From NCBI GenBank assembly GCA_024220505.1, contig JAKZZE010000020.1:1031880-1095879 (forward strand): DNA of 64,000 bases, in the 5' to 3' direction. Positions 21,723 to 54,273 of the stretch are shown piece by piece. The translations under genes and the position numbers were made by a program. The notes beneath the pieces were generated by a model. The model did not search any database and was not told the DNA's origin. It was given only the letters and a program-made list of their open reading frames with translations. Each line of letters starts with the position of its first letter. Positions within the stretch are counted from its first letter, which is position 1. Source of the DNA: Rhizopus arrhizus (lineage: Eukaryota > Mucoromycota > Mucoromycetes > Mucorales > Rhizopodaceae).

Positions 21723-21724
21723 TA

Positions 21725-24085: not shown

Positions 24086-24118
24086 TATATATAAATACGA
24101 TCAAGCAGTATTACATAC

Positions 24119-26426: not shown

Positions 26427-26501
26427 TTTTTTTTTGTGAATTCTTTATTGACTTTATTTTTAAAACAACCCTTTTTTATTATTACTACCTACCTTACCAA
26501 T

Positions 26502-29804: not shown

Positions 29805-29806
29805 TA

Positions 29807-31436: not shown

Positions 31437-31438
31437 TA

Positions 31439-33191
31439 TAATAAATGGTTATACAACCGTCATTTTACCTTGACAACTGATCATAAAGCCTTGATTTATA
31501 TCAAGAAGCAAGTTGTTCCAAATGCTGCCATGCTTGTTTGGTTTGAAACAATTTTCGAATATTCATTTGATATTGTTCATTGTCCTGGCATTAAGAATAT
31601 TATCCCAGACGCACTTAGTCGTTTATTCCCAGATGACAATAAACTGGAGGGGGGTAACAATGTCAACAATGTTGCCATCTACAATATCCGTGGTAAAGAA
31701 AAAGAAAAAAGAAAACCAACTTTTAAAGAAAAATCTAAAAGTTATGAAACACAAACATATGCAGTCACTTCTGCAACATCATCATCATCATCAAAACCCT
31801 TATTGCATCGCGCTTTGCAATATGAAGATTATATCACACCTCCTCCTGAGGAAAGAAAAGATATAATATTGAAGGCTCACTTATTAGGTCATTACGAAAT
31901 TAAAGCCATAGAACAAACCATTCATGGTGATAATCTCCACTGGACTAATTTACGTCAAGATATTCAGGATGTCATATCCAAGTGTCATGAATGCAAAATG
32001 TTTAACATTGCCAAAACAGGTTATCATCCCCCTAGAAGTATCCTACCTGACGGACCTCTAGATCATTGGGTTATGGACCTCGGCACTTTTAATATAACAT
32101 CTACGAGCGGAAATAATTTCCTTCTTGTCATGGTTGATTTATTTTCTCGCTTTACTATCTTGAAAGCCATTCCTGATAAACAAGCTCTTACTATTGCCAA
32201 ACAGCTTGTTGATATCTTCTGTACATTCGGCTGGCCTAAGGTCATCGCTAGTGATAACGGAAAAGAGTTTACTGCTACCATCGTTACTGAACTTATTAAT
32301 AACAGTGGTATCGATAAGAGAGTGTCTAACCCTTTTAATCCCCTTGGTAACTCAGTCAATGAAGCATTTGTAGGAATTGCTAAAAAGACTATCGTTAAAC
32401 AGTTACAAGGAAGAAAAGAAGATTGGGATCTATATGTACCTGCAACCCAATATGCTATGAATCTGAAATATTCCAGACTTCATAAGAGTAGACCATACAC
32501 AGTAATCTTCAATAAAGTACCAAATGATATGAAAGATTATTCTCATATTAAATCCACTCTTAGAAGTGATGCTGTAGATCCTAAAGCAATAGAAAACAGA
32601 CTTAAATATGCTACCGAAGTTGTTATCCCTGCTCTGGCTAAACGCATTAAGGAAACTCAGGATGTAGACAATGCATATTTTATGAAAACAAACAAAATCG
32701 TTCATACACCGTTTCCACTCCATAGTGAAGTCATGATTAAAAATGTGAACAAGGAAAACAAAACTGATCCGCATTATGAAGGACCTTTTTACATAAGTGG
32801 AATGACAACTAATGGCAGTTACATATTAGTTGATAAACAAAATAACCTCTTATCAAGAGATGTACCCACTTCACACTTAAAACTTATTGCATTACCCAGT
32901 AATAAAAGTGCAGAATCAATCGATGGCCAACATTATGAGATTCAAGCAATTATACAACACAAAGGAACTCCAGGTAATTACCAGTATCTTGTTCATTGGA
33001 AAGGATACGATGATCCTACAGATTACACTTGGGAACCTACTTCTAGCTTCGATGATCGATCTTCAATTGAAACATATTGGGCTCGTCGTCAAGCAGGTAA
33101 CAATACTGCTGTCTCAAAGAAAGCAAGACTACCTAAACGTACCGTTCCTACTCGTGATCATTACAGTAGAAGCAAGAGATCAAGACGTTAA
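31439..33191 (+). CDS. GyC gag-pol, 3' part (RNase H end, integrase, chromodomain)
   Basis: Continues the frame after dMar-4 (LTTDHKALIYI, PDALSRLFP). The integrase has an HHCC zinc domain (HLLGH ... CHECK-like CHECKM) and a core with MDLGTF, ASDNGKEF and SVNEAFVG supplying D, D and E. A C-terminal chromodomain (IIQHKGTPGNYQYLVHWKGY, then TWEPTSSF, about 65 residues before the end) would tether integration to modified histones. Ends with a basic tail, TAA 33189-33191. Confidence 0.93.
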
Positions 33192-33417
33192 ATTGTCTAA
33201 GTAGTTAACCGTCTTTTTCCCTAAGACAATTTTTCCTAAAGAAGGTTTTTTTATTATCAGGTTTTTATGACAACTTACTACTACGATCTATCCTCAATTA
33301 TACTATGTCTATTTAGCTACCCTATGATCATTACCGCACTTATTGTGTATGACCTTTGCTCATTTCTGAATCTTCACTTTTCCTTTTTACCGTTTGCTTC
33401 AAACTAGAAGGGGGCAA

Positions 33418-33840
33418 TGTTGTATCCACACAACTAGTAAAGTGAACATTCATGGATAAACGAGAGATCTCCGCAATAGCCAACTCTGCCCTGTTGTCCC
33501 TATCGGCGTTCCCACGACTATATCGGAATCTGATTACAACAACGGCAGTTCAATCCAACCTTATTCGATAATTATCGCTAGATCAATAATTTATCTACTT
33601 CATTGTCCCTTGATTCGTCAAGAAGACAGCGGCTATTGATTATCTACTATCTTTCCTTTATCTTCCCATCCTTCCCACATTATTCTTTTAACCGATCAAT
33701 TGAAATAGCGGTAAAGATCCAGACATCCAAAAAGTATAAATAGCCTCAAATGTTTTTATTAATAAAGCAATATATAATCTTTAGTTTCACAACTATTGTC
33801 TTTTTAGTTTTTGTCTTTTATTTTAATACTTGGCAAAACA
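33418..33840 (+). repeat. GyC 3' LTR
   Basis: Matches the 5' LTR across its length. Preceded by the polypurine tract at about 33402-33417. Confidence 0.92.
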
Positions 33841-33974
33841 CTATTGTTTTTTTGTTTAATTTTTTATTTAATCTTGCGATTAAAACAGTTAGCTTCAGAT
33901 ACTCTTCTTGATTCTATTTTTTTTTTTTTGAACATTAGCACATTTGGATTTTTATTAAAAAATAAAACAAAAAC

Positions 33975-34104: not shown

Positions 34105-35845
34105 GTTTATATTTTTTAAATTTGGAAATAGTAAAGAAAATAGGTAGAAAGAGAAAATATGCCTGATAAAAAAAAAAAACGTTAAATTTAAAAAACAAAG
34201 TCGGTGCTTAAAGTAACCTTTTTTTTTCCCTTGTTTTGTTTCATGGAATGCACGAGATGCCCAAGATACAAAAGATACAAAAGAAAACTCAAGCATTGGT
34301 CAAATGTAAGTTTATAAAAAAAATAACAACAACCAAGTCTAATATCGGTTTCTTTTTTTTCTTTTTTTCTTTTTTTTACATTAGAAATTCCTAATGGGAC
34401 ACATTCGGATGATGAACATTAACCTCATGAGAGAAGCTTTTCTTTCCAACATGATAAAGCTATAAGAATATCACTTATATTGCTGCTTGCTGCTGAAAAT
34501 CTCTTTTTAGTAAAGGAAGCTGCCACTGCTAACATTTCTAATGGCTAATGGCTAATTGCAAATTACATCATGTGCAAACACAAAGTAAGTAATGAACTAG
34601 TATAAGTTTAAAAACATATATTCTATTATATTATCTGTCATAAAAAATAATAAAGCAATCTATTTACTTGAAAAGCAAAAACTTTTGCTTGTATTTGTCA
34701 ATTATAACTGCCTTGTAATAAAATGTGAGCAAAGCTTCTTTCTTCTTAGAATATACAAGTATTCTTTTGTTATAACATAAAAGCATTTGCATTTCTATAA
34801 AGTATATTTGCTGTTAGATTATTGTTTTCATTTGAATAAGGAACCTTTTTGTTTTAATCGCAAGATTAAATAAAAAATTAAACAAAAAAACAATAGCAGC
34901 AATATAAAATTAAAATCCTTCTTTATTGCAGATTTCTTTATATTGCGAAAAGGCCTCGCTTTATGGATAAAAAGTTGGCATCTATTTATATTCTTTGTGA
35001 GCGTAGATATAAAAGATATAGACTCGGTCACGATGTCGTGCTGAAGAACCAATGATTAAGCTAAAGCTTGTCGATGTTCTAATATATGCATCTGAAGTTG
35101 AACAATAGAAATAATAACCAGTCAATTAACTTTGATCTAATTACTTTTGGGGTTGACAATTGATTAGACTCTCTAGGATGACAGATATTGATCTTATTGT
35201 TCTAAATTTGGAAAAGTGTGGAATTGTTCAATCATAGTTTAATCTTTTGTGTATCGTTATTAATTTTAATACAACTGATATCATATAGAAAATAACTATG
35301 TTTACAACACTTTTATTGCTATGCTCTTTTTTTTTTTTCACTAGGTCTTTTTTTTAACTTTGTCTTTTTTTTATTTTTCAGCTTCTTTTTTTTTTTTTTA
35401 CTAGACGCAACTATTTTGTTACGCCCTGTTACACATTTCTAATGAGCTACGCTAAAAATCACAGATTGCCTTCCTAATATGTATTCTTCTGTACAAAATA
35501 ATCGCACGGTGCTTTTGATTTCCGCATTTTGCCCTCAAAAATAAAAAAAAGAAAATATCGGTCTTTAAACAATGGAGAGAAATACACTTTCCAAAAAAAG
35601 ATCATTTGTAAAAAAAGACATTTTTTTAAAAACATGAATAACTCCATGAATATCTACCCTACAAATAAAATAATAACATTGTTGAATTTCGTTATTTTTT
35701 TCGTATCTAAATCTTTTTTCAAAATTCGAAAATGATCAATACAGCAAGATTTAATTTTTTTCAGGAAAAAAAATAACTATCCGTTACCCAAAAGAAGAGC
35801 AATCTTGCGCAATCCGGTAACTAATGGGAACGATTATTTGCAGTG
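34105..35845. other. CAC-2 5' region
   Basis: About 1.3 kb of non-coding promoter-proximal CACTA DNA plus LTR-B3. Matches CAC-1, CAC-3 and CAC-4 5' regions, with long poly-A/T tracts. The short frames here begin at TTG rather than ATG and are not conserved as proteins, so no gene is called. Confidence 0.6.
34850..35309 (-). mobile_element. LTR-B3, 460-bp solo LTR
   Basis: TGTTGTAAACATAG at the right, CTTGCGATTAAAACA at the left, read on minus. 5-bp duplications CTTTT (34845-34849, 35310-35314). Inserted in the CAC-2 5' region. The uninterrupted form is seen in CAC-3 near 52155. Confidence 0.9.
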
Positions 35846-35902: not shown

Positions 35903-35975
35903 GCCTTCTTGGCTCAGATGGCAGAGCGTCTGCCTAGTAAGCAGAAGGTCGCCAGTTCGATTCTGGCAGAAGGCA
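35903..35975 (+). tRNA. tRNA-Thr(AGT)
   Basis: 73 nt with a perfect 7-bp acceptor stem (GCCTTCT / AGAAGGC), discriminator A, A box GGCTCAGATGGCAGAGC, and anticodon stem TCTGC/GCAGA with loop CTAGTAA (anticodon AGT). The T arm is GCCAG TTCGATT CTGGC. No intron. A run of five T at 36010-36014 is a plausible Pol III stop, 34 bp downstream. Confidence 0.93.
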
Positions 35976-36170
35976 CATTAACTCATAAATGGTATACCTG
36001 TGATGTAGCTTTTTGTCTCCAGTATATTTTACTCTTATGTGTTGTGTCACATCTTTTGATTCTACTGTGACGAAAATAGAAATTTTTTCAATCAAACTGT
36101 ACTGTTGTGACGCAGTTGGTGTAACTTTTGCGGAAGAAGGGACTCAGTCCTAAGAGGGACTTAGTCGTAG

Positions 36171-36702
36171 TGTAACGAAGATTACAACATAAACACCAGC
36201 AATGGCTGCGGTTTGTGATTTTTAATTTTGAACCTTATTCTTTTTTTGAACTTTATTTCAAAATCAAACTTTATATCGAAATCAAACCTTATATCAAAAT
36301 GAAACTTTATTTTTCTTTGTCTATAAAATAGACAAGTTTTTATTTTTATTTTACTTCACTTCTCTTGACATATATATTTTAACTTTACTTATCTTAAATA
36401 TATTTTATCCAATAAATCAAGTATCTTTATCCCTGAATCTTTTGGTATAATACTCTTAAAATACAAGCAAGACAAGTCCCTTGAAGTCAATTATCTTCAT
36501 TGTAAACATTCTTAAAACTCTTATCAAGTTACCTTATTACAAGCAAGTTTGATCTACTTAACAAGATCTGGTGGTCACTTACAAACGAATTTAATACCAA
36601 TACTTTACCCAACTCTTATTTTTTTTTATTCACTTTCGTCAACTTTACTCTATTTCAAAACCGTTAACTCTTACAAGCCATTGAAGCAACAAAAAAATTA
36701 CA
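36171..36702 (+). mobile_element. D1, 532-bp solo LTR in LTR-E
   Basis: TGTAACGAAGATTACAAC...AAAAAATTACA with 4-bp duplications GTAG (36167-36170, 36703-36706). TATA-like CTATAAAATAG near 36320. Contains AGATCTGGTGGTCACT near its 3' end. Confidence 0.82.
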
Positions 36703-36749
36703 GTAGGAGGGACCTCAGTCCTAGGAGGGACATCAGTCCCTGAAGATAA

Positions 36750-37328
36750 TGTAACAAAGATTACAACATTAACACCAGCAATGGCTGCGGTTTGTGATTT
36801 TTTAATTTTGAACCTTATTCTTTTTTGAACTTTATATCAAAATCAAACCTTATATCGAAATCAAACCTTATATCGAAATCAAACCTTATATCAAAATGAA
36901 ACTTTATTTTTCTTTGTCTATAAAATAGACAAGTTTTTACTTTTATTTTACTTCACTTATCTTGACTTACTTATCTTGACTTACTTCTCTTGACTTATAT
37001 ATTTTAACTTTACTTATCTTAAATATATTTTATCCAATAAATCAAGTATCTTTATCCCTGAATCTTTTGGTATAACACTCTTAAAACACAAGCAAGACAA
37101 GTCCCTTGAAGTCAATTATCTTCATTGTAAACACTCTTAAAACTCTTATCAAGTTACTTTATTACAAACAAGTTTGATCTACTTAACAAGATCTGGTGGT
37201 CACTCACAAGCGAACCTAATATCAATACTCTACCCAACTCTTAATTTTTTTTTATCCATTTTCATCAACTTTGCTCTATTTCAAAACCGTTAACTCTTAC
37301 AAGCCATTGAAGCAACAAAAAATTTACA
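36750..37328 (+). mobile_element. D2, 579-bp solo LTR in LTR-E
   Basis: Close relative of D1 with extra CTTGACTTA repeats. TG...TTTACA with 4-bp duplications ATAA (36746-36749, 37329-37332). Confidence 0.82.
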
Positions 37329-38193
37329 ATAAACAAAAAAAAAAAGTTCAAAAATAGAAAAACACAAAAAAATGACAATCATATAAATATCCCTTTATCC
37401 TTTCACTTTTCGATTTAACTTCACTTACTTTTTGATATATACTTACTTTTCGATATATACTTACTTTTGATATAACTTACTTTTTACTTTTGACATATTT
37501 TACTTTAACATAAAATAAAAAGAATATCTTCAAGGATCTACATTTAAAGTCTTTCTGATCCCTTACATATACATCAAGTCAAGTCCTTTGAAGTCAAATT
37601 ATCTTCATCGTATCAATTTTATATTCTCTTATCAAGAAAACCTCTTATTACTTTTTACTGTTTGATCTACAATACAAGATCTGGTGGTCACTTACTACAA
37701 GCAAACCAAATTTATCAACATAAACACAAGCCTTTGATCTCAAATTCTTTTACACTTCAAAGAAAAGTCAAATTATTTCTAAACTCTTAAGGCCATTTAA
37801 ACGAAACAATACCTATCACAAGAAAAATTACACTGTAACACAAACAATGATTTAGTCCCCGATACAAACATGTACAATTACAGTTTGGATGAAGAACATG
37901 AACTTTAATTTACAGTTCAGGACAAGAGACAATAGGCACCCCATATTTTTATATAAATAAGATGAATATTTTGAACAAAATAACAGACATTCAATAAATC
38001 ATATTTTCTTGCGCTTAAAAAGCAATTGTTTCTTATTGGGTCACAATTACCTTTTCTTTTCTTTTTATTTTTACTTATTCTTTCTGATCTGATACCTGAA
38101 TTATCACGAATCAAGAAAGATCCCTTTTATTTTTATCTTTTATTAAATAATCTTACTCCTAACCTTATTGATCTATAAAGATCTGGTGGTCAC

Positions 38194-38608
38194 TGATGTA
38201 TCCATCATTCATAACTCGATATGAAAACAGTATTAATAAGCTACATGTAAAATATATCCAATAGATAGGCTACAGGTTAATTCGGATAATCTTCATTAAG
38301 GATAAGATGCTGCGTAATTGCACGGTTAAATTATATTAAATCCAGGAACTAAATCACAGTCAATCGCAGTCAATCATATACGAGTATTCTATGGATAAAT
38401 GCTTATGATGACAAAGATAACAATGGAAGAACACGTAACCATTATCTATTTGTCATCAGTTATATCATACTCATTAATTATTAATCCATAACATGAAATA
38501 TTATCCGTGTATGAAAAGTATAAATAGAGTATCATTTTCTTATTAAATAAAGCAATCTCTTTATCGAGTCTCGTCCTCTCTTGTTCCTTTCTATTCTTGG
38601 ATAAATCA
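38194..38608 (+). mobile_element. LTR-F, 415-bp solo LTR of another family
   Basis: TGATGTATCCATC...GGATAAATCA with 5-bp duplications GTCAC (38189-38193, 38609-38613). TATA box GTATAAATAGAG near 38520 and AATAAAGCAATC, like the GyC LTR. It interrupts the TGGTGGTCACT box of LTR-G. Confidence 0.83.
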
Positions 38609-39289
38609 GTCACTACTTAAAACCAAATTACGATATCAAAAGAACTGTTAAACGTTCAATCAAGTTAATCAAACTCAAGTCATTCAAGGCTTCAAACTTC
38701 AAATTAAACAAATCTACAACACTTTAACACAATCCAAATCCCAAGTACTAACAAGTTACAGTACCACTTGACGAAGAAAGTTCGGACCTGAACTAAGTTC
38801 ATGTCCTCAATATTTTTGATAAACTCAATGAAATTGAATAACTCAACTAAATTCACAATTCAAAGGAAAACACAAAAATCTAAAAACATCACAAAATCAA
38901 GAAAACCAAAAACATATAAATATCAACAATTTATCAAGCATTATTATTATTATTATTTTCTTACCTTATCCAAATAAATCTCCTTTGAAACAAAATACTT
39001 CTTTTATTTTATAAATAGGAAGAACTAATAATCCCTTGAATCATATACTTCATTGTAATCTCTTTTTTATTTTATCTTTTATCTTTCATCTGTTTATTTT
39101 ACTTTTATTCAATTCAGACTGATCTACTTAACAAGATCTGGTGGTCACTCTACTCAAGCGAACTTACAACTCAAATTATCTACTCTTTTTGGATATTACT
39201 TTATCCAATACCTTATTCAATTACCAAAACTTTGCCTCAAAAACTTATATCAAACCTACTTAAACCCGAAAGCCTAACAATCTCACATT

Positions 39290-39307
39290 TGGTGGTCACT
39301 ACGAGGG
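39290..39307 (+). promoter_or_regulatory. Primer-binding site of the LTR-H element
   Basis: TGGTGGTCACTACGAGGG begins 2 nt after the LTR end, complementary to a tRNA 3' end ...AGTGACCA-CCA. The same box follows the GyE 5' LTR. Confidence 0.7.
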
Positions 39308-42829: not shown

Positions 42830-43432
42830 TGTAATTTTTCTTGTGATAGGTATTGTTTCGTTTAAATGGCCTTAAGAGTTTAGAAATAATTTGACTTTTC
42901 TTTAAAGTGTAAAAGAATTTGAGATCAAAAGCTTGTGTTTATGTTGATAAATTTGGTTTGCTTGTAGTAAGTGACCACCAGATCTTGTATTGTAGATCAA
43001 ACAGTAAAAAGTAATAAGAGTTTTCTTGATAAGAGAATATAAGATTGATACGATGAAGATAATTTGACTTCAAAGGACTTGACTTGATGTATATGTAAGG
43101 GATCAGAAAGACTTTAAATGTAGATCCTTGAAGATATTCTTTTTATTTTATGTTAAAGTAAAATATGTCAAAAGTAAAAAGTAAGTTATATCAAAAGTAA
43201 GTATATATCGAAAAGTAAGTATATATCAAAAAGTAAGTGAAGTTAAATCGAAAAGTGAAAGGATAAAGGGATATTTATATGATTGTCATTTTTTTGTGTT
43301 TTTCTATTTTTGAACTTTTTTTGTTTATCTTCAGGGACTGATGTCCCTCCTAGGACTGAGGTCCCTCCTACGACTGAGTCCCTCCTAGGACTGAGTCCCT
43401 TCTTCCGCAAAAGTTACACCAACTGCGTCACA
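42830..43432 (-). repeat. GyE 3' LTR
   Basis: TGTGACGCAGTTGG...AGAAAAATTACA on minus, 603 bp. Contains the hairpin minisatellite (43334-43400) and an internal AGATCTGGTGGTCACT box near its end. Confidence 0.87.
43334..43400 (-). repeat. Palindromic 17-bp minisatellite in LTR-E
   Basis: Four units of the type GGGACTCAGTCCTAGGA. Each unit contains near-palindromes (GGGACT..AGTCCC, TCCTAGGA). Repeated in the 5' LTR at 51283-51349. D1 and D2 inserted in or beside the equivalent array in the solo LTR-E. Confidence 0.75.
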
Positions 43433-44125
43433 GATCCCCCCACCAAGGGAAGAACCGCTCTCGGTTCGAGACAACACCTGACCCCATTGGTCGTGATTTT
43501 TCATTTTTGTAAACAGGGTGCGGTAAACAGTACAGTTAGGAACAATAGTCTTGAGTTGGTTATATTTTGCTGTTTCATACAAGTAAATGTCTCGCTGATT
43601 GTTTTCAGGTCTTTTGAATTTCGAATGAGCCCATTCAGTTGCGTTTTGTGCAAAGTTATCAGCTATGATTTCTTTTTGACGGTTTATCATCGATTGCTGT
43701 TCTAATAACGATCGATATTGCTCAAAGTATTCAGCCAAGCATAGTTCATAGAACCACAAATCATCAGTAGTACTTTGGTAGGTTTGAATCAAAGGTTGAT
43801 TTAAAGTAGCATCATTGTTTTCTTCTCCTTCCTTTTCTTCTTCATTAACCATGCTTGCCTCTTGCTGTTCCATGATTTCGGATTCGATTCGAGTAATTGT
43901 ACTTGCGATGAACTGATACTTGCTCACGATTTGACCATCAACTTGATATGTGTAGTTCTTGTATTGATTCTCATAAAAGATCAAGAAGTTGTCTAAGGCT
44001 TGACAGGCAGCCTCGATTCCTTGTTCGATGTATTGCTTCTTGACATAGTTCTCAACTGTGTCCAAGTAGACAGGTCCTTGAGTGTTAGCAGCAGAGTTTT
44101 CTTGTACTTCTTGAATGTTGCTCAT
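43385..44125 (-). CDS. GyE ORF3, extra protein downstream of integrase
   Basis: 246 codons, ATG 44125, preceded by T/A homopolymer DNA. Soluble, acidic and Gln/Tyr-rich (MSNIQEVQENSAANTQ; EEEKEGEENNDATLNQ; DLWFYELCLAEYFEQYRSLL), with no signal peptide or membrane segment, so not an envelope. The last ~17 codons (CDAVGVTFAEEGTQS) are LTR sequence, so the PPT lies inside the ORF. I do not recognise a family. Its position corresponds to the extra 3' ORF of some plant and fungal Gypsy elements. Role unknown. Confidence 0.6.
   Translation of the reverse strand: MSNIQEVQENSAANTQGPVYLDTVENYVKKQYIEQGIEAACQALDNFLIFYENQYKNYTYQVDGQIVSKYQFIASTITRIESEIMEQQEASMVNEEEKEGEENNDATLNQPLIQTYQSTTDDLWFYELCLAEYFEQYRSLLEQQSMINRQKEIIADNFAQNATEWAHSKFKRPENNQRDIYLYETAKYNQLKTIVPNCTVYRTLFTKMKNHDQWGQVLSRTESGSSLGGGICDAVGVTFAEEGTQS
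43433..43443 (-). promoter_or_regulatory. GyE polypurine tract
   Basis: On minus, GGTGGGGGGATC directly abuts the 3' LTR start TGTGACG; expected plus-strand primer. Confidence 0.75.
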
Positions 44126-44232
44126 TTTGTTTAAATATTTGATATAATGATTCTCTCTCTTTTTTTTTTTTTTTTTTTCATTGATATATATATATGTTTT
44201 TTTTTTTTTTTTTTTTTTTTGTATGTGTGACT
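44126..44232. repeat. Homopolymer spacer between integrase and ORF3
   Basis: Two poly-T runs of about 20 nt separated by an (AT)n stretch. No gene. Confidence 0.6.
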
Positions 44233-45579
44233 TTAATGAAGAAGTTCTTGCGTTTCAGTATCCATTTGGTGTACAAGAATTCGCTCGTTCTCCATGATCC
44301 ATTGCGTCTTGGGGAGCAAATATGCTTTCAGTCGATTCCCATGTACTCTTCTTAATTTGGTATCCCGGATGTCTGCACTCTTGATGTGATACGTGCCTTT
44401 TCCCAATATATGTTGTATGATGAATGGACCTTCCCATTTGTCTTGCAATTTTCCTGACCAAGAGGTGGACATATAGTCTTTAAACACTAATACTAGTTCA
44501 CCTATCTTGAAAGGAGGTTTCAATTCTTTACTCTGGTCTAATATCTTTTTCTCTATAGCTTTCTTTTGAGCATTTTGAGTTTGCTTGATGGCTTGAGTAG
44601 CTTGTTCACGGATCCTATTCAAGTTATGTATTTGATGTGTTGTCCTGTGCCACAGCTTTGCTTCAAATTTGGGAGAATTTTTCTCATACAAGTGGTGATC
44701 TAGGTCAAAAGGTGTTCTGGGTTCGTAACCATAAATTAAGAAAAAAGGAGAATGTTTGGTTGTAGCTTGCTTGATTGATCGGTAGGCAAACAATGTCGCA
44801 GGTAAATAAGTATCCCAGTCTAATTTTTCTTCATAAGAACGTCTTTGTAATATTTGTCCAAGTGTTCGGTTGAACCGTTCTATTAGGCCATTGCTTTGTG
44901 GATTGTAAGGTGTTGTGGTTTTGTGTATTATGTTGTAATTTCTGCACACCTGTCGGATGAGATCACTTAGAAAGGGTTTACCGTTATCTGACACCATGAT
45001 CGTTGGGCATCCATGCCTGCAGATAATGTCTTCATAAACAAACAAAGCTATTTCTGATGCATTTTGAAATCGTAAGGGTCTCGCTTCCACATATTTTGTA
45101 AGATAATCTATAGCAGCAATAATATATCTATGTCCTGATCTTGATGTTTGTACATGTTTCACATCCAAGGCAACCCGATCAAATGGTTTTGCTGAAACTG
45201 CTACGGGATATAATTCTTCTTTTAATGTTTTCTTCCCATGCATTTGGCATCTGTAACATTTCTTGACATAATTCATAATATCTTGAGACATATTATCCCA
45301 GTAGTAACGAGATGATATCTTGTGTAGTGTATTATTGTAAGCCAGGTGACCACCCAATGGATGTTGATGGTATGCGTACATGATTTCTTCTGCTTCTTTT
45401 TTGTTTAATACTTTTCTGATGATCCCATTCTCAGTATTGTATCTATATAAGATGTCTCGGTAGATTGTAACCTTGTTCGCTTCTTTCTTGAGGTACTTCT
45501 TCATTCTAGAAGTTGTGTCTTCAGCTATTTTCATTGTTTGTAGATATTGTGTCAACTGATCGATTTTGTATTGTTCCAT
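44233..45579 (-). CDS. GyE integrase
   Basis: 448 residues, ATG 45579 to TAA. HHCC zinc domain (AYHQHPLGGH ... CYRCQ), catalytic core with ALDVKHVQ, VSDNGKPF and LIERFNRT providing D, D, E, followed by a GPY/F-like C-terminal region (KWEGPFIIQHILGKGTYHI). No chromodomain. It forms its own ATG-started frame because the RT-RNase H part normally upstream is missing; whether the Met is a genuine start or accidental is unclear. No internal lesion. Confidence 0.88.
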   Translation of the reverse strand: MEQYKIDQLTQYLQTMKIAEDTTSRMKKYLKKEANKVTIYRDILYRYNTENGIIRKVLNKKEAEEIMYAYHQHPLGGHLAYNNTLHKISSRYYWDNMSQDIMNYVKKCYRCQMHGKKTLKEELYPVAVSAKPFDRVALDVKHVQTSRSGHRYIIAAIDYLTKYVEARPLRFQNASEIALFVYEDIICRHGCPTIMVSDNGKPFLSDLIRQVCRNYNIIHKTTTPYNPQSNGLIERFNRTLGQILQRRSYEEKLDWDTYLPATLFAYRSIKQATTKHSPFFLIYGYEPRTPFDLDHHLYEKNSPKFEAKLWHRTTHQIHNLNRIREQATQAIKQTQNAQKKAIEKKILDQSKELKPPFKIGELVLVFKDYMSTSWSGKLQDKWEGPFIIQHILGKGTYHIKSADIRDTKLRRVHGNRLKAYLLPKTQWIMENERILVHQMDTETQELLH

Positions 45580-45634
45580 TATGCTTATTGTTTGAAGTAG
45601 GTGTATTGTTTCAGATTTTTTTTTTTTTTATATA

Positions 45635-47264
45635 CAGTAGCGGACAAAACTGGTGCACAAAACTTAAAATTAACATTGTATCTCCGCCATATGTCTGCGA
45701 CTTTTGTGGTATATACCATCTGAAAGACAGTCTAAAATATACATTACGTTATGTAAACCGGAACTGTGCCGGACATCCCTCAGGCATAAGGTCATTTTTA
45801 GTGATTTTTTGCATATTTCAATTTTCGCCAAAAATGTAGTGCTTGTCTAGCCTTCTTTCAATTTTCCCCAAATCTCTCCCGTTTGCTTTCAGATTTCACA
45901 GCAGATTAGTAAATTCTAGTAGCTCATAAAAAATATATAAAACTGTACTTATTTTGTATTTCCCATTGAGCCCCCCCTTTTGTTTTTACCCTATTCACTA
46001 TAACAAAGTACTAGCCTTATATGTTTAAGAAAATAAGCAACTGTAAAAACGAAACTCTGAGATCTCGAATACACTTAGTTCGTACGACAACAGATATTTC
46101 TAGAATAACAAGAATCTCTAAATGGACAATCAACAGGAGAAAGAGGGAAGAAAGAAACTTAATGTCTTGTGATCATGAAGGTATTCCGCTATTAGCCTGA
46201 AAAGTTATTAGTTCAGTCATCAACCTAGAGCTTGGACAAGGTCCGCTACACACAGTTTCTGATGCTCAGCACATTTTGAGGACCTTAAGATACAGTGTTA
46301 GCAGACTGTCAGTCTAAAGGCACAGTAGGAAGCTAGATTTTGAGTCTGGAAGTAAGGAATCGAAGAATTTCATCAGCTGTATAAGTCGGAAAAAGCGATG
46401 AATGTGGTATCACAACAAGCCATTGTATACTATAGAGGGCTGGAAGTCTGCTATCTTTAGCAATGAAACAAATATGAACATTATGGATGCAGACAGTATA
46501 CACTAATATTGAAAGCAAGTCGAGCAACCTTAGCGATTTTTTCACGGTGATCAAACAATGAAGCATGCTGGCTGCTCTGTTATGTTTTAAGGTTGTATTA
46601 GATATTGAGGACCAGAATATGTGTGTCAGGTATACGATGGTATAATGAACTCATAAATATGCACATATATTTCGCTTACTTCATACCACAAAAGCCTAGC
46701 GTATAGTGGTCTAAAACGTCGTAATCTCTCGTTTCAGCATGACAATGACACAAGGCACAAGTCAACGCATGTCACAAACTCAATATTTGATAACAGCGCT
46801 TCTGTGCTACAAGTTTAGCCGCTACTAATCCCGGCCTAAGTCCGCTTAAGCATGCCAGGTGGCAATTGATGGCAAAGGTATGATGATACGACACTAGATC
46901 AAAAAGGGTCGATGATCTTTGGAAAAGAATAGTTAAAGAGCCGGGTTCTTTTACTGAAAATGATATACACGCATATTATTAGCATATGCAAAGAAGAACA
47001 TCCGATGATATCAAGAGATGAGATGATTATATAAAGTCTAAGGTCTTAGCCACTTTTGCGGTTTTTAGAAAATATAAAATTTTATAAATTTAAAGCACGC
47101 TTATCGCTCAGTTTTAACAATGTCATGCTCAGAACATACATAAATTACAATGACTAGTATATCCTCCTTCTAGTACAGTTTCATGACTATTGCAACTACC
47201 ATGAGCAGGTAATGGTAGTTAAAAGCTGAAAAAAAGTTTTGTGCACCAGTTTTGTCCGCTACTG
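45635..47264 (+). mobile_element. dMar-5, 1630 bp, in the gap of the GyE pol
   Basis: TA at 45633-45634 and 47265-47266. Shares variants with dMar-1. It lies between the RT start and the integrase frame, exactly where GyE has lost the RT palm and RNase H. Confidence 0.93.
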
Positions 47265-47300
47265 TATATACTGTTTTTGTAAGATTTTATGAATTTTGTT

Positions 47301-48914
47301 TCAACTACCCCTCCCTTCCTCCATCGGCACTTGATGAAAACCAGCTCGCATATCTAATGCTGAGAAAACTTTAGCTTTTCCTAACGTGTCTAGCAAGTCA
47401 TCAATTCGTGGTAATGGGTATGCATCTTTTTTTGTAACTGCGTTAAGCTTTCGGTAGTCTATCACCATTCTATATTCTCCATTTTTCTTTTTAACTAAGA
47501 TGACTGGCGCAGCCCACGGACTGTTTGAAGGGGAGATCACACCTAGTTTTGTATATTTTTCTAGTTCCTTTTGCAAGTGTTCCGCTTCCAAGGGGCTAAT
47601 CCGATATGGTCGGTGACTGATAGGCAAGGTGCCTTCTTGTACAATTATTTTGTGTTGTAACAACCTTGTATGGCCGATACTGTCATTATTCCAGTCGAAA
47701 ATTTCTTCGTATTTCTTTAAGAGCCTTTTTAGCTTTCTTGTTGTTTTTCTATCCATTTCTCCAACTTCAAGCTTATTGTACTTTTCTGTTTCTAAAGTTT
47801 CTTTGTCTTCATCCAAAGTTTCTTTATCCATTTCGTCGGTCATTTCCATTGTACAAAGTTGCAGGTTTTTTTCAACATGATATGCTTGTATAATTGTATC
47901 CTCTTTAAGGTTAAGTTTTTCCAAGATTCCTATTTCTTCACCTGGGTCCAGAATTATATTATCATTAGAGCGATTGTATATTCGAATTTCCAAGCTTTTT
48001 CTGTTGATAATAAAGTTGTGACAAGGATCAAGAACACCAGATTTTTGTAATATTTTGGCACTGGTTATTTCAAAATTATACATTAATTCTGTAAGTTCAT
48101 CTTTAGGTTTCTTGATTATGATAGTTTTTGATGAGTTTGCTGGAATAATTAATCCATCTGATGAGGCTTCCAGAATGCATTGATCTTTAAGATTTTTTAT
48201 CTGTATGTCTTCCTTGTAGTTGTTTTCAAGCAATAATAGTGAATGTTCTTCATCTTCAGCTTCTTCTTCTTCTTCAGTAGATTCTTCGTCAGTGCTTTCT
48301 TCTGATTCTTCATCAACTTCATCTTCTTCTAAATCTGTTTTATCATCCTCGAAATGCACTTTTTTCGTTTCTTTTGAATTTGTTGAACTGATAGGATGTT
48401 GGTAACTTTGGATGTAACTGGCCATTTTTGGTAGAGGTGTATTCTTACGTAAAAAGAATATTTCTATTTCTGCTTTTTTGTTTTTATAGGACACCTTCAG
48501 GGTTGAACTATTAAAATCAATTTTGGCCTTTGCTCTGTTTAGCCAATTGTTTCCGATAATTAAATGAGTTGGGCAAGATGGTAATACTTCAACAGTGCAT
48601 GGAATAATTAAATCCTCTTGTACTTCAATAGGTACATCGTATATTACTCCCAAAGCAGGTTGTTTAGTGCCGTTTCCTAGGGTAAATACGCTTTCTGAGG
48701 CAGCATCTATTTCTAATCCTAGAGCGTCTGCTAGGGATTTTGACATACACGTCTTGGCAGCACCACAGTCAACAAGTACTTTCACCGTTTTGTCTCCGAT
48801 ATTGATTTTCGAATATACGGCAGTGGTATTGATGTCATCCTCTTCTATTACAGCCATAGTCTCCTTTGAAGCTTCTGTTACAGGTATTCTTTTGGGTTTA
48901 CATGCATTTGCCAA
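47301..48914 (-). pseudogene. GyE protease and truncated reverse transcriptase
   Basis: The pol frame continues upstream of the first Met to about 48967 (ADISVADLIVAAPILRR). The protease reads VKVLVDCGAAKTCM with DCG in place of DTG/DSG, and LIIGNNWL follows. A long acidic linker (Glu/Asp/Ser rich, about residues 190-225) precedes RT entry: ISPSNSPWAAPVILVKK, YRKLNAVTKKDAYPLP, then FSALDMRAGFHQVPME with the first catalytic Asp. It ends at TAG 47301-47303; the YxDD motif and RNase H are absent. One further -1 shift (near 48968) is needed to join it to the upstream linker frame, probably an indel. Confidence 0.85.
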
Positions 48915-48952
48915 ACTCCTTCTAAGTATGGGTGCAGCTACTATCAGATCTG

Positions 48953-49410
48953 CTACAGATATGTCTGCTTTTGATTCATAACATCTGATACAATATCATA
49001 TCTGATAGGTGGAGCCTTCGTTTTCCTTCTTATTGGTTTTGGCTTGATTTCAATAGGGAGATCAGAGTCTACTTCCATATTTCCTGTAGCCTGTATAGGT
49101 TGTTTGGGTACGTTGCTTGTTTCCTTGACTTGATTACGTTTGTTCACACGCTTAGTAACTGAAGTACTACTTGGTTGTTTTCCTTTTTCTCTTGTTATAG
49201 GCTTAGAGTAAGGCTTGGAGCTTAGAACTTCGGGCGGGTGTTCAGGTCTTATAGCAGCATAAAGATCTTGGGCTTGATATGGGTTATCGTATTCATTTTG
49301 AGTAAGTATGGCATTGAGATTATGTTGTTGGTTCTGTTGTTTAATGGGTTTGTTATTATGATGGGTGTTCGATCGACCATTCTTTTGATTATCAAAAGCA
49401 ACCGACCCAT
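48953..49410 (-). CDS. GyE gag-pol linker read after -1 frameshift
   Basis: Open frame directly -1 to gag, beginning LNGSVAFDNQKNGRS and running through NEYDNPYQAQDLYAAIRPEH, EVLSSKPYSKP and IEIKPKPIRRKTKAPP to VMNQK. Composition is protein-like and basic/Gln-rich, so it is a real pol N-terminus rather than chance. It ends at a TAG at 48953-48955, next to the start of the protease frame. Confidence 0.65.
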
Positions 49411-50640
49411 TTAGTTTTTTGATTGTTGGTTTTGATAGCGAGGCTGAGAGGTGCCTTGCTGGGGTTGATTATTATAATTATCAGTTGGCTGATTTGGATT
49501 ACGATTTTGATTGCTATATTCATTTCTTCCATAACTATGATCATAGTTATTTCTGTATCTGTTGTTGCCTCTGTAGGTATAACCGTTGATTTCATTTCGA
49601 TTATATCCATTATTGTAATCATTGTTTTGAGAATTGTTATAGTTATCGTATCTTGGACGTCGATTATAATTTCTGGTAGGTTGTGATGAATGTTGATGTA
49701 GATTCAATTCACTGCGTATAGTTTCTTGAATAAGGTTAACCAAGTCGTGTTGTGAATTGGTATGCACTAGTTGATTGTTATGTCTATTCATCATTGGCTG
49801 TGTATACAAATGACTATTATTTGCATTGCCTTTTACTTCCATGGTGACTAATTGGTTTGGACTTGTGATTAATTCAGAATAAGGAGCAATATAATTACTT
49901 CCAGCATTGTTGCGTAAGTCATTAATAGGTACAGCATGAATATGTCTTTCTTCTGTATCGATTAATTCTACATTATGATTGTTTACTCCATGGTGTCTTG
50001 TATATCTGTTGTCATCATGATATATGAGGGCATTGTTGACGTTTCTTGGAATAAAAGGATTATCCACCATGGCTATTTTGCGTGGACGATTGGCATTCCA
50101 CCATCCATCAGCATGATTGATCCATTCTTGGAATGTATGGGCGCTACTTTGTATGCAGAATTGTTTAATTTCTTTAAGGAGACCAACACGAAAACGACTT
50201 TCAACAACTGCTTCACTTGTAATGTTTGCAAGGTCAGCAGCTTCACGGAGTCTCGCCAAAAAGATTTGTGGATGTTCCTGTTCACCTTGAAACATTTCGT
50301 TAAATTCTAATTCATAGCTCTGAATTAGTTCAGGCGTGATGTAGTGTTGCTTGAGTAATTCCATGGCGTTGTCATATGTGACATTAGGGATTCTCTTGAG
50401 TATTTCTTTCTCAAAATATATTTTAGCAGCTCGACGCAATTGAGACTTGAGTACGATAAGTTTTCTGTCATCACTGAGTGTATTAGTGATTGCAAGGTAT
50501 GAATCAAGTATTTCTTGAAAGTGGCGAAAGTCTTCTCCTTCATAGCCATAAAATTCAATTAACCTTGGGCGAAAACCTTGTGTAAAAGTTTGATTGTTAG
50601 CATTTGCCAACGCGATTTGTCCTGTAGAGTATGAGGCCAT
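49411..50640 (-). CDS. GyE gag
   Basis: Start taken at ATG 50640 (MASYSTGQIAL); the frame is open from 50742. A capsid-like region follows (FYGYEGEDFRHFQEILDSYL, ELLKQHYITPELIQSYELEF, HPQIFLARLREAADL). The last ~100 residues are Asn/Tyr/Arg/Gln-rich (NYNRRPRYDNYNNSQNN, RGNNRYRNNYDHSYGRNE) without any CCHC knuckle, so an RGG-like tail may bind RNA instead. It ends AAA AAC TAA, which forms a -1 slip site. Confidence 0.88.
   Translation of the reverse strand: MASYSTGQIALANANNQTFTQGFRPRLIEFYGYEGEDFRHFQEILDSYLAITNTLSDDRKLIVLKSQLRRAAKIYFEKEILKRIPNVTYDNAMELLKQHYITPELIQSYELEFNEMFQGEQEHPQIFLARLREAADLANITSEAVVESRFRVGLLKEIKQFCIQSSAHTFQEWINHADGWWNANRPRKIAMVDNPFIPRNVNNALIYHDDNRYTRHHGVNNHNVELIDTEERHIHAVPINDLRNNAGSNYIAPYSELITSPNQLVTMEVKGNANNSHLYTQPMMNRHNNQLVHTNSQHDLVNLIQETIRSELNLHQHSSQPTRNYNRRPRYDNYNNSQNNDYNNGYNRNEINGYTYRGNNRYRNNYDHSYGRNEYSNQNRNPNQPTDNYNNQPQQGTSQPRYQNQQSKN
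49414..49420 (-). promoter_or_regulatory. -1 frameshift heptamer AAAAAAC at gag stop
   Basis: Codons TCA AAA AAC TAA place A AAA AAC in exact slip phase with the zero-frame stop adjacent. The -1 frame is the pol linker. A 7-bp hairpin (CTTTTGA TAA TCAAAAG) starts 15 nt downstream of the heptamer. Confidence 0.75.
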
Positions 50641-50780
50641 TTTTAAATTTGATATTTTTGTTTTTGGTACGTTCTGTAGTTCTTGAAGTAGAGTTTTGAT
50701 AGTTTTCTTGACGATTTGTTTTAATTTGATAGATTTTTCCAATTGCTTGTTAATAATGTTTGTAATTTGTTGATTTGTTC

Positions 50781-50797
50781 CCTCGTAGTGACCACCA
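50781..50797 (-). promoter_or_regulatory. GyE primer-binding site
   Basis: TGGTGGTCACTACGAGG on minus, 2 nt after the 5' LTR end. Same primer tRNA as the LTR-H element. Confidence 0.78.
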
Positions 50798-50799
50798 AA

Positions 50800-51381
50800 T
50801 GTAATTTTTCTTGTGATAGGTATTGTTTCGTTTAAATGGCTTTAAGAGTTTAGAAATAATTTGACTTTTCTTTGAAGTGTAAAAGAATTTGAGATCAAAA
50901 GCTTGTTTTTATGTTGATAAATTTGGTTTGCTTGTAGTAAGTGACCACCAGATCTTGTATTGTAGATCAAACAGTAAAAAGTAATAAGAGTTTTCTTGAT
51001 AAGAGAATATAAGATTGATACGATGAAGATAATTTGACTTCAAAGGACTTGACTTGATGTATATGTAGGGGATCAGAAAGATTTTAAATGTAGATCCTTG
51101 AAGATATTCTTTTTATTTTATGTTAAAGTAAAATATGTCAAAAGTAAAAAGTAAGTTATATCAAAAGTAAGTATATATCGAAAAGTAAGTAAGTCTTTCA
51201 AAAGTGAAAGGATAAAGGGATATTTATAGGGTTGTGATTTTTTTGTGTTTTTCTATTTTTGAACTTTTTTTGTTTATCTTCAGGGACTGATGTCCCTCCT
51301 AGGACTGAGGTCCCTCCTACGACTGAGTCCCTCCTAGGACTGAGTCCCTTCTTCCGCAAAAGTTACACCAACTGCGTCACA
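50800..51381 (-). repeat. GyE 5' LTR
   Basis: 582 bp. TATAAATATCCC promoter-like box on minus near 51220. Minisatellite at 51283-51349. Internal AGATCTGGTGGTCAC box near 50945. Confidence 0.87.
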
Positions 51382-51487: not shown

Positions 51488-51560
51488 AGCCCGACGGGGG
51501 GGTCGAACCCCCAACCTTGAGATTAAGAGTCTCACGCTCTACCGATTGAGCTAGCCGGGC
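51488..51560 (-). tRNA. tRNA-Lys(CTT)
   Basis: 73 nt on minus: acceptor GCCCGGC / GTCGGGC (one G-T pair), A box TAGCTCAATCGGTAGAGC, anticodon stem TGAGA/TCTCA with loop CTCTTAA (anticodon CTT), T arm with GGTTCGACC. No intron. Five T on the transcript at 51470-51466 give a Pol III stop. Confidence 0.94.
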
Positions 51561-51614: not shown

Positions 51615-54273
51615 CACTGCAAATAATCGTTCCAATTAGGTACCGGATTGCGCAAGATTGCTCTTCGTTTGGGTAACAAATTGCTACTTTTTTTCGTGAA
51701 AAAAATTAAATCTTGCTGTATTGATCATTTTCGAATTTTGAAAAAAGATTTAGATACGAAAAAAATAAAGAAATTTAACGATGTTATTATTTTATTTGTA
51801 GGGTAAATATTCATGGAGTTATTCACATTTTTAAAGAAATGTTTTTTTTTACAAACGATCTTTTTTTGGAAAGCGTATTTCTCTCCATTGTTTAAAGACC
51901 GATATTTTCTTTTTTTTATTTTTGAGGGCAAAATGCGGAAATCAAAAGCACCGTGCGATTATTTTGTACAGAAGAATACATATTAGGAAGGCAATCTGTG
52001 ATCTTTAGCGTAGCTCATTAGCAATGTGTAACAGGGCGTAACAAAATAGTTGCGTTTAGTAAAAAAAAAAAAAAGAAGCTGAAAGATTAAAAGTAAAAAA
52101 AAAAGACAAAGTTAAAAAAAAGACCTAGTGAAAAAAAAAAAAAGAGCATAGCAATAAAAGATTCCTTATTCAAATGAAAACAATAATCTAAGAACAAATA
52201 TGTTTTATAAAAATACAAATGCTTTTACATTATAACAAAAGAATACGTGTATATTCTCAAAAGAATAAAAAGTAAAGAAGCTCTGCTCACATTTTGTTGC
52301 AAGGCAGTTATAATTAACAAATACAAGCACAATTTTTTTGGTTTCAAGTAAAGAGATTACTTTATTATTTTTTATGACAAATAATACAAAAGAATATATG
52401 TTTTTAAGCTTATATTAGTTCATTACTTACTTTGTATTTGCAGATGGGTGTAATTTGCAATTAGCCATTAGCCATCAGCCATTAGAGATGTTAACATTGT
52501 CAACTTTCTTTATCAAAAAGGGCTTTTTAACAACAAGCAGTAATATAAGTTTGATATTCTTATAGTTTTATCGTGTTAAAGCGAAAAACTTTGCTCATGA
52601 GGTTCATGTTCGTCATCCGAATGTGTCCCATTAGGAATTCCTAATGTAAAAAAAAAGAAACCGACATTAGACTTGGTTGTTATTACTTTTTTATAAGCTT
52701 ACATTTGACCAGTGCTTGAGCTTTCCTTTTTTTTTGTTTTATGCCTTTGGCATCTAGTGTATTCCATGAAACAAAACTAGGGAGAAAAAAAAAGATGTTG
52801 TTTTACTGCTATAATTTGTTAAGATACCGACTTTTTTTTTTATTTCAAGTAAAAAAAAATAAAATAAAATAAAATAATAACCTTCCTCCTAAACATATTG
52901 CATTCAAGTAATAAAACTTGTTCAAGCAATGTATAAGTTATCTTTTGGGATACCATTAAATGTAAACTACATGAAAAGCAATTGTTTTTGTTTTCTAATA
53001 TAGATAGACAGTGAATAAGTGTAACATTGGTAAAATAAGGCTACAAAAAAGCACTTCTCTTTTTTTTTTCTTTTTTTTTTCTTCTCTTTTTTATAAAAGG
53101 TAAGTTCTTAATATTACATATGTATTCTATTCCTATTCTAATGGTACTTGTACTTTAGTAAAGATGTATCGATTGCTTTTTTTATGGTTTAAATAGTCTT
53201 TATAAAGTCTCTTTCCCAGAATTGTAGTTGCTTCTTCTTTTATTTGTTGGTATAAGCTTGACTGGTATCTTTTTTTTTCTTTTTTTTTTCATGGTCCATC
53301 CAAAGCAAGGTACTATTACTTTTGCTACATATACTCAATAGCTAATAATTATTATAGATGCCTGCTGCTTCCTTTTTTTTACTTATTGGTAAAAGCTTAG
53401 CAAGTTTTCTTCCCCTTGTCTATCTAAAGAAAGGTACTATTGCTTTTACGATATATATACGATGGCTAATAATTATTATAGATAAATGCTGCTCTGCTTT
53501 GGCCTCTTTCTGTTTCTTTCCTGGTTTTTACTTTGGTTCTTAAGTACTGATGTACTTCCATCTTTTGCTTTAAGTGCCCTGGTCCTTGTGTCTTTGAATC
53601 CTAGAATCCTTGAGCTTGCTTTTTTTTTTCTTTTCTTTTGAGAACTTTTAAAGTTCCACGAGATTAATTGATGTATTTTTAGATTAGATGCTGCTATTCT
53701 GGTGACATTAGGTAAGTCAAGCACACTGTTAAAATGCTACAAGCAAAGAAATACTATGTATTGTTATTATTATTTTATTTAAATAAAAAAAAAAAGCTAT
53801 TTTTTATAAACAAAATCCCTATTTTTTGTATATATAAAGCAATATTTATTGCAATATGAATGGTCGATAAAGAAGTATATAAAGCAATATAAGTGGTTCA
53901 TAAAGAAGTATATAAAGCAATATGAGTGGTTTATAAAAGAGCAAAAAGACAAATAAAGTAGTGTTTTACAAAGCGTGATTGGTTGCCAAGCACCATTAGA
54001 TGTCAAATTGATAATAAACAAGAGCCACAACGTAACTGATGAAAGGTCCACCTTGCAAGATCAGTTAACGAAAAAGTCTCCCAACAGTCTCCTGTGTTGG
54101 CCACAAATCTTGCACCATCACATAACCAAAGGGCGAACAATAACTTACACGATTTGTGGCAGAGACAGGAGGCTGTGCGTGGATAAATCTCTTACCTGAT
54201 TGTACACGATTGTAAATTATTTCGCAAGATTGGTAAACGATTTGTTACCCAATTTACACTATTATTTGCAGTG
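51615..54273 (+). mobile_element. CAC-3, non-autonomous CACTA-like element, 2659 bp
   Basis: CACTGCAAATAAT at both ends, 3-bp duplications AAT (51612-51614, 54274-54276) as expected for CACTA. Subterminal words TTGGGTAACAAAT and CAAGATTG recur inverted at both ends. The interior equals the CAC-2 5' and 3' parts with both genes deleted. Starts 54 bp upstream of the tRNA-Lys 5' end. Confidence 0.82.

Follow-up and report, generated by a model that had tools for sequence, protein, structure and literature searches.

Results

LTRs stacked downstream of a tRNA-Thr gene

Contig JAKZZE010000020.1 of Rhizopus arrhizus (NCBI GenBank assembly GCA_024220505.1) contains, within a stretch of 64,000 nucleotides (positions 1,031,880 to 1,095,879 of the forward strand; hereafter called the window, whose own numbering is used throughout), a gene for tRNA-Thr (AGT) that is followed by a stack of long terminal repeats (LTRs) of a Ty3/gypsy retrotransposon family. 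The tRNA gene, found by ARAGORN at 35903..35976 on the plus strand, is the target gene in question, and five related LTRs (H, G, E, D1, and D2) lie behind it on the same strand. The oldest of them, LTR-H, starts at +90 from the end of the tRNA gene; its first 37 bp (36066..36102) have a start that is matched at other tRNA genes, and its remainder (38765..39287), for which copies of 95–99% identity exist elsewhere in the genome, is the 5′ LTR of an element. Behind it lies a primer-binding site (PBS; 39290..39307, plus strand), 16 nt of which, as read by eye, pair with the 3′ end of tRNA-Val(UAC) including CCA. LTR-G is inserted in H at +127 and is split into its first 3 bp (36103..36105) and the remainder (37837..38760). 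LTR-E is inserted in G at +130 and is found in three pieces, namely, the first 65 bp (36106..36170), which match the LTR start of a full-length element called GyE (see below), a middle piece between D1 and D2 (36707..36749), and the remainder (37333..37832), which is 99% identical to the 3′ LTR of GyE. D1 (36171..36702, at +195) and D2 (36750..37328) are solo LTRs adjacent to each other in E, and they are 95.9% identical when gaps are not counted. The start of D2 is at +774 in the raw sequence and at +238 once D1 and its duplication are removed.

Measured from the start of the host LTR, G is thus inserted 37 bp into H, E 3 bp into G, and D1 and D2 65 and 108 bp into E, respectively. Given that each later and nearer insertion adds about 500 bp, the un-nested start of an LTR corresponds to its distance from the gene at the time of insertion; for the five stacked LTRs, these distances fall in a span of 150 bp (90–238 bp), and the offsets in the host LTR vary. 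Four of the insertions are flanked by perfect 4-bp target duplications: GTAC/GTAC for G (36099–36102 and 38761–38764), CTGT/CTGT for E, GTAG/GTAG for D1, and ATAA/ATAA for D2. At the base composition here (G+C 35.9%, as compared with 35.6% for R. oryzae), the chance of a single 4-bp match is 0.005. LTR-H is flanked by CTAC on the left and TTTG on the right, and it has no right-hand duplication that could be tested because H is a 5′ LTR with the primer-binding site next to it. The initial annotation of this DNA had described five plus-strand LTRs at 90, 127, 130, 195, and about 238 bp behind tRNA-Thr together with the four duplications; the positions were reproduced base for base, and all four duplications proved to be perfect and to differ in sequence.

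The same LTR family is found at a second tRNA gene of the window, tRNA-Lys (CTT; ARAGORN, 51488..51560, minus strand). GyE, a full-length Ty3/gypsy element on the minus strand (42830..51381) recognized from its LTR pair, has its start at 51381, which is 107 bp away from the end of tRNA-Lys (106 bases between, in agreement with the 106 bp given initially). Its orientation relative to tRNA-Lys is as in the tRNA-Thr stack, and its target duplication is ATGT/ATGT (ACAT on its own strand). In all seven family LTRs of the window, furthermore, AGATCTGGTGGTCACT was noticed behind a short GATC hairpin (36569, 37194, 37682, 38184, and 39139 on the plus strand; 42980 and 50950 on the minus strand), and the last 11 bases of AGATCTGGTGGTCACT repeat the start of the primer-binding site behind the 5′ LTR.

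Family LTRs downstream of tRNA genes across the genome

The genome surveyed comprises 50.26 Mb in 41 contigs, and the genome-wide questions were answered on samples. Among 63 tRNA genes scored genome-wide, 30 were taken by tRNA score alone with LTRs disregarded; their isotypes are few in number, and one of the genes is tRNA-Lys of the window (L031). All 30 loci have co-oriented family LTR sequence on the 3′ side, amounting to 13,048 bp in total, as compared with 578 bp upstream in the same orientation (three loci), 157 bp upstream in the opposite orientation (one locus), and 444 bp downstream in the opposite orientation (one locus). Six control repeats taken together over the same loci gave 33 bp in the downstream, same-orientation class, and the remaining three classes had 922, 337, and 539 bp. 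These LTR matches reach down to about 61% identity, and it is therefore the contrast between the sides, not any single match, that carries weight.

The distances were examined with the hexamer TGTRAC, with which the family LTRs of the window start (LTR-G being split after three bases). From +1 to +300 of the 30 tRNA genes, this tag occurs 49 times on the same strand, including 33 occurrences at +51 to +150; the counts per 50 bp from +1 onward are 5, 19, 14, 6, 2, and 3, followed by 0, 1, 1, 3, 1, and 0 up to +600. At least one tag was present at +50 to +300 in 28 of the 30 loci, and upstream (−600 to 0) there were five in total.

We also started from the LTRs. A set of 121 copies of three sub-families was assembled (40 of the 41 long LTR-H matches, 39 of the 40 LTR-E matches, and 42 matches of D1/D2), leaving out the window's own LTR-H query and LTR-E; shorter partial matches were uncounted. 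These copies were compared with a list of 159 tRNA or B-box sites, drawn from the 63 scored genes and 100 of 135 B-box matches. Within 500 bp of these sites, 22 of the 121 copies (one of which is GyE of the window) lie downstream and co-oriented, and none falls in the other three classes. D1 and D2 of the window are among the 121 and count as misses since the site list lacks tRNA-Thr, and the copies of LTR-H start 37–41 bases late, making their distances too large by that much. Random shifts of 3–100 kb gave 0.04–0.06 near copies per set and at most two in 2000 shifts; chance clustering is rejected by these coordinate counts.

A set independent of the LTR queries was obtained from the primer-binding site, namely, 99 of 201 places matching the PBS, on contigs up to C20, with one listed place, the tRNA-Val gene itself, left out. 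Twenty-five of these 99 elements are within 1.5 kb of a catalogued site, and all 25 are downstream and co-oriented; at 1.5–10 kb, the numbers are 10 downstream in the same orientation, one downstream in the opposite orientation, none upstream in the same orientation, and one upstream in the opposite orientation. When 37 loci centred on LTRs were searched with ARAGORN, a tRNA gene was present within 1.5 kb in 18 (one locus carries a second, divergent tRNA), and the LTR was downstream of it and co-oriented in 18 of 18, with 16 at 500 bp or less. Among the remaining 19 loci, six are 3′ LTRs and 11 have a co-oriented piece of a family LTR within 900 bp upstream, with no such piece in the opposite orientation. 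The enrichment of family 5′ ends downstream of tRNA genes, for which a mapping test had been proposed with the initial annotation, was therefore present in every sample and was strict in side and orientation.

In the course of this mapping, runs of PBS places 7.3–8.1 kb apart and in one direction were noticed on contigs C9 and C16 and on part of C11, and on contig C37 three LTRs follow a tRNA in one direction. These arrangements suggest that full-length elements are stacked in tandem behind single tRNA genes on these four contigs.

U6 genes, 5S, and a chromovirus of the same window

Besides tRNA genes, we searched for U6, another gene transcribed by RNA polymerase III (Pol III), and obtained 18 matches, of which the 14 above the family cut-off were all read. 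Two copies (L070 and L075) have an intact body ending in ...GAGCAACA plus ten T, and a co-oriented family LTR lies downstream of both. At one of them, a G-type LTR extends from +88 with 83% identity over the first 358 bp of the LTR; at the other, an LTR starts near +52 (as judged by eye, the library matches being only 41 and 43 bp), carries AGATCTGGTGGTCACT, and runs into the family primer-binding site at +538. By eye, the flanks of the two genes are unrelated to each other. No family LTR was found downstream of the 12 other U6-like copies, most of which are degenerate or without a T run; T runs do occur at L083 and L076, where the U6 body is altered, and L078 has a weak 73-bp match on the opposite strand at +984. 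Since LTRs stand at matching distance and orientation behind two U6 genes, the guide is more likely to be the Pol III apparatus than the body of the tRNA gene, albeit on this small sample. As a guide, an external B box was rejected, given that no B-box-like motif (one motif was used) was found in the 500 bp that follow each of the 30 tRNA genes.

The window contains a second Ty3/gypsy element (26004–33887), identified by its LTR pair and a domain scan, which has a chromodomain and LTRs 98.1% identical to each other. No LTR of this chromovirus was seen downstream of the 30 tRNA loci, and none of its 40 LTR copies examined (of 41) comes closer than 2 kb to the catalogued tRNA sites. We accordingly reject the idea that LTR elements in general are drawn to tRNA loci.

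Proteins of GyE

The 5′ LTR (50800..51381) and the 3′ LTR (42830..43432) of GyE are 97.8% identical, with 13 mismatches in 582 and 21 gap columns. Between them on the minus strand are, in order, an open reading frame (ORF) of 443 aa in the gag position, in which the domain scan gave no significant domain; an ORF with an aspartic protease and the start of a reverse transcriptase (47301..48914; PF13975, 4.7e-13; PF00078, 1.3e-10); an ORF with an integrase composed of an H2C2 zinc domain and a DDE core (44233..45579); and, between the integrase and the 3′ LTR, an ORF of 246 aa with no known domain, called ORF X (43385..44125). The best solved relative of the integrase by sequence is Ty3 Gag-Pol (7q5b, 3.8e-24). 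Judging from pairwise and profile matches, the family of GyE is classified as Ty3/gypsy, in line with LTR ends of TG...CA, a 4-bp duplication, a tRNA primer-binding site next to the 5′ LTR, and the order of protease, reverse transcriptase, and integrase.

A chromodomain was not matched in the integrase or ORF X of GyE at E up to 10, nor in any of 32 integrases (GyE and 31 of the 120 relatives listed) at E up to 0.1, and the predicted structure of the integrase has no domain beyond the C-terminal strands. The relatives of the integrase include one match of 98% and a match of 96% over 44% of the query in R. delemar RA 99-880, and those that are named are mostly from Rhizopus. Relatives of ORF X are found in R. 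arrhizus (86%) and R. delemar (81%). ORF X matches nine of the 120 integrase relatives listed; in one of them, a 722-aa protein of R. microsporus (P0037), the integrase is at the start and the C-terminal part resembles ORF X (5.7e-20 in that set of 120). ORF X is thus a separate ORF in GyE, and a similar sequence is fused to the C terminus of the integrase in P0037, for which reason we regard ORF X as a candidate tether or accessory domain. Its assignment to a known domain was rejected, as there was no Pfam match below E 0.7; its structural model, which has helices and two short strands, has a mean pLDDT (predicted local distance difference test) of 61 and is too weak to interpret.

GyE is interrupted between the reverse transcriptase and integrase ORFs by a 1.64-kb repeat (45631–47270). 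Six copies of this repeat, 97–100% identical and in both orientations, occur within the 64-kb window, the others being at 15464–17109, 20088–21724, 22443–24091, 29804–31440, and 58436–60075. One copy lies inside each gypsy element of the window, and the six probably represent a recent burst.

A tnp2-type DNA transposon on the upstream side

On the other side of tRNA-Thr, we found the end of a tnp2-type DNA transposon (35310..35845, minus strand), whose terminal repeat ends 57 bp before the gene. A 2,659-bp element with terminal inverted repeats (TIRs) at 51615..54273 on the plus strand is similarly placed at tRNA-Lys, its terminal repeat being 54 bp before the 5′ end of the gene, and further copies of this family, which has the TIR CACTGCAAATAAT, are located from 54280 onward and at 7110–11404. 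Among the 30 tRNA loci, the element with the TIR CACTGCAAATAAT ends 50–59 bp upstream of the tRNA in eight, with the same end facing the gene in eight of eight; in four more loci it is further upstream, one of these having the other end facing the gene, at −614. The tRNA-Val(UAC) gene, furthermore, has LTR-start tags downstream and a TIR element 56 bp upstream. The TIR pattern occurs in 545 places genome-wide, 100 of them listed; among the places listed, eight TIR ends on contigs C1–C5 are within 2 kb upstream of known sites, at 56–68 bp and facing the gene, and one more lies downstream of a B-box site, possibly a false one, at a distance of 526 bp. Tandem TIR copies 1–8 bp apart were found in at least 17 pairs.

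A 7.4-kb TIR copy upstream of the tRNA at L015 holds a tnp2 transposase (L085), and PF02992 (tnp2) was detected in L085 as well as at 24111–25451 and 55928–57265 of the window. Elements of the En/Spm (CACTA) type have TIRs starting with CACT(A/G) and make target duplications of 2–3 bp. The tnp2 transposase and the TIR CACTGCAAATAAT fit this type; AAT is present on both sides of 51615–54273, and no clear duplication is seen at 7110–11404. In the literature searched, we found no report of an En/Spm element targeting tRNA or small nuclear RNA (snRNA) genes. Dada DNA transposons, whose targets are multicopy tRNA and snRNA genes, are comparable to the present element, but the passages on Dada describe insertion into the RNA genes themselves (PMC3706591, PMC8869645), whereas the tnp2 element ends 50–59 bp upstream of the gene. 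The tnp2 family may represent another Pol III-linked targeting system, independent of that of the LTR family.

Discussion

The initial annotation had proposed that integration of this family is guided by tRNA genes or Pol III to the downstream side, unlike that of yeast Ty3. This proposal is supported by the enrichment in our samples, by the contrast with the chromovirus, and by the two U6 genes, and we consider it highly probable that a chromodomain-less Ty3/gypsy family of Rhizopus undergoes Pol III-guided, orientation-fixed integration downstream of its target genes, by which older copies are pushed outward. Position, orientation, duplications, nesting, the chromovirus contrast, and the LTRs behind two intact U6 genes are all read from the DNA itself; it is the molecular contact that we infer. 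The integration complex would be delivered to Pol III-transcribed genes and would insert the element about 25–250 bp (mostly 50–150 bp) past the 3′ end, with the 5′ LTR almost always facing the gene. As this window of insertion would be fixed relative to the gene, a new copy would enter either the flank or the first ~110 bp of a resident LTR, displacing older copies outward into a same-direction stack; repeated use of one window would account for the stacks, and an affinity for the LTRs themselves would not be needed. In the case of Ty3, TFIIIB is described as the factor that guides insertion to the start site (PMC5911963), and the use of a 3′ window here would accordingly point to the far side of TFIIIC or to an elongating or terminating polymerase as the tether. 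The contact might be made by the integrase or by ORF X, and an asymmetric contact could fix the orientation if the complex reads both the side of the gene and which end of the element goes where. Concerning ORF X, though, those DGLT-A elements of P. pallidum for which long integrase extensions are reported are described in the same source as having no tRNA-gene preference (PMC5006619), which argues against a role as tether.

Several observations weigh against guided downstream integration. The standing copies are insertions that have been filtered by selection. Family matches violate the rule in three of the 30 loci upstream in the same orientation, in one upstream in the opposite orientation, and in one downstream in the opposite orientation; the opposite-strand TGTRAC tag is mildly raised at +51 to +300 (11 versus 43 on the same strand); and two of the 37 LTR-centred loci (L059 and L061) are unexplained. 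The bias in orientation fades at 10–50 kb, where the PBS-placed elements number 10 downstream in the same orientation, 10 downstream in the opposite orientation, two upstream in the same orientation, and six upstream in the opposite orientation. In addition to being incomplete, the tRNA catalogue contains B boxes that are false, given that a reversed control pattern had 61 matches versus 135. As for the other Pol III genes, the LTR is missing at L077, a near-intact U6 copy that ends in T5; a sample of two U6 genes is very small; and the single 5S locus found is without a family LTR.

Some of these points bear on other explanations. Instead of a Pol III protein, the chromatin of tRNA genes, with its nucleosome-free gap and replication-fork pausing, might guide the element, and the broad window of insertion (24–298 bp) is as expected for accessible chromatin rather than for a single contact. 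The strict orientation, however, demands a directional cue, and nothing comparable is seen on the 5′ side; we regard this explanation as unlikely. The U6 hits are compatible with chromatin and a Pol III protein alike. Integration might also be untargeted, with copies surviving only behind tRNA genes, where their side and direction do the least harm. Only standing copies are seen indeed, and the flanks of tRNA genes are described as places of refuge where genomes are compact (PMC5006619). The chromovirus nevertheless persists elsewhere in this genome, with none of 40 copies near a catalogued site, and GyE, which is fairly young in view of its LTR identity, is already in place behind tRNA-Lys. 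Survival alone would, moreover, have to bring 25 of 25 near elements into one of four classes, with a probability of 9e-16 if the classes were equal, and to produce the peak at 51–150 bp, so that such filtering appears quite improbable as the sole cause.

The start of the LTR could itself be the target, with self-insertion following the arrival of a first copy near a tRNA gene; all four nested insertions of the window are within the first 3–108 bp of their host LTR. Self-insertion leaves unaccounted for, however, the LTR copies behind all 30 tRNA genes chosen by score, and the offsets in the host LTR vary (3, 37, 65, and 108) while the distance to the tRNA stays at 90–238; the target duplications are not alike, and by eye no relation is seen between the flanks of the two U6 genes. 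Nesting directed by sequence is hence very improbable. We give even less credence to the joint multiplication of a few original tRNA–LTR units by segmental duplication or by recombination between stacks. Upstream sequence is common to several of the 30 loci (13 pairs at a local score of at least 75 of 150, partly via the upstream transposon), and L011/L016, L022/L025, L028/L037, and L034/L035 look like true duplicates; joining the pairs leaves 21 groups. The first 60 bp downstream, however, are also common in only one pair (L028/L037), tRNAs of ten isotypes at the LTR-centred loci, as well as U6, have LTRs at differing distances, and the window has target duplications of differing sequence.

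Guided downstream integration, as preferred here, can be compared with earlier reports. Ty3-like LTR elements were reported to make up 8% of the R. oryzae assembly and to be strongly selective in their insertion sites, "often co-localizing with tRNA genes (Figure S1)", and the title of that figure refers to "some transposable elements" (Ma et al. 2009, PMC2699053). The Ty3-like elements of R. oryzae 99-880 are very probably this family or its close kin. The passages of that paper dealing with R. oryzae describe co-localization, but without side, distance, orientation, nesting, or U6 (PMC2699053), and in the open-access literature (subscription papers not being covered) we found no report on the side, distance, or orientation relative to tRNA in Rhizopus. 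The association with tRNA genes was thus already known for this fungus, and the side, distance, orientation, and U6 hits appear to be new.

Downstream Pol III targeting was described in 2018 as being found only in dictyostelids (PMC5911963). Among the dictyostelid elements, the chromovirus Skipper-2 of the Ty3/gypsy group resembles the Rhizopus family in position, being reported about 100 bp downstream of tRNA genes (7–136 bp over four species; PMC5006619). As described in the same source, Skipper-2 has a diverged chromodomain, and a chromodomain was found in none of the 32 integrases here; many Skipper elements lack a canonical primer-binding site and Df_Skipper-2 has one, whereas that of the Rhizopus family fits tRNA-Val(UAC); and D. 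discoideum has eight copies of Skipper-2 in contrast to the deep co-oriented stacks of Rhizopus (PMC5006619). Membership in Skipper-2 is therefore rejected for want of a chromodomain, the downstream position being a shared way of working and not a sign of membership. Ty3 of Saccharomyces cerevisiae is also a Pol III-guided Ty3/gypsy element and provides the closest solved integrase by sequence, but its insertions are described as lying for the most part 0–20 bp upstream, close to the start of transcription (PMC7175516), and as occurring in either orientation (PMC5911963), in contrast to the downstream position and single orientation in Rhizopus; none of the 121 LTR copies is upstream within 500 bp of a catalogued site in the manner of Ty3. 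DGLT-A, a Ty3/gypsy element of dictyostelids, is like the Rhizopus family in having no chromodomain and in being targeted to tRNA genes, and three P. pallidum DGLT-A elements with long C-terminal extensions of the integrase (PMC5006619) may be compared with the integrase-fused ORF X-like sequence; the position given for DGLT-A is, however, 13–33 bp upstream in either orientation (PMC5911963). TRE3 of Dictyostelium is a non-LTR element with a different insertion chemistry, whereas the Rhizopus family has LTRs, a primer-binding site, and an integrase; TRE3 makes use of the box B or of an external one, and no external box was seen behind the 30 Rhizopus tRNA genes.

It is conceivable, though we put it forward only tentatively, that the Pol III genes of this fungus are divided between two unrelated elements: the Ty3/gypsy family on the 3′ side, with an asymmetric complex and a fixed orientation perhaps mediated by ORF X, and the tnp2 family 50–59 bp upstream, also in a fixed orientation. 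If this is true, two new kinds of targeting would be represented, one by an LTR integrase that inserts in a fixed orientation and the other by an En/Spm-type element that Pol III guides to a place beside the gene. Integrases of the retroviral type work as a near-symmetric pair of ends, and one-way insertion is therefore informative on how direction is read; a family inserting nearly one way past Pol III genes would provide a natural handle on this property of the intasome. The stacks, furthermore, preserve the order of insertion and, together with the fixed distance, document how single genes were hit repeatedly.

In conclusion, this family is set apart among Pol III-targeted retrotransposons by keeping to the 3′ side in a fixed orientation, by its hits at U6, and by having no chromodomain, and the side, distance, and direction of its insertion seem to be new for fungi. 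Downstream Pol III targeting would thereby be extended to fungi, in a lineage without the chromodomain that is suspected in Skipper-2.

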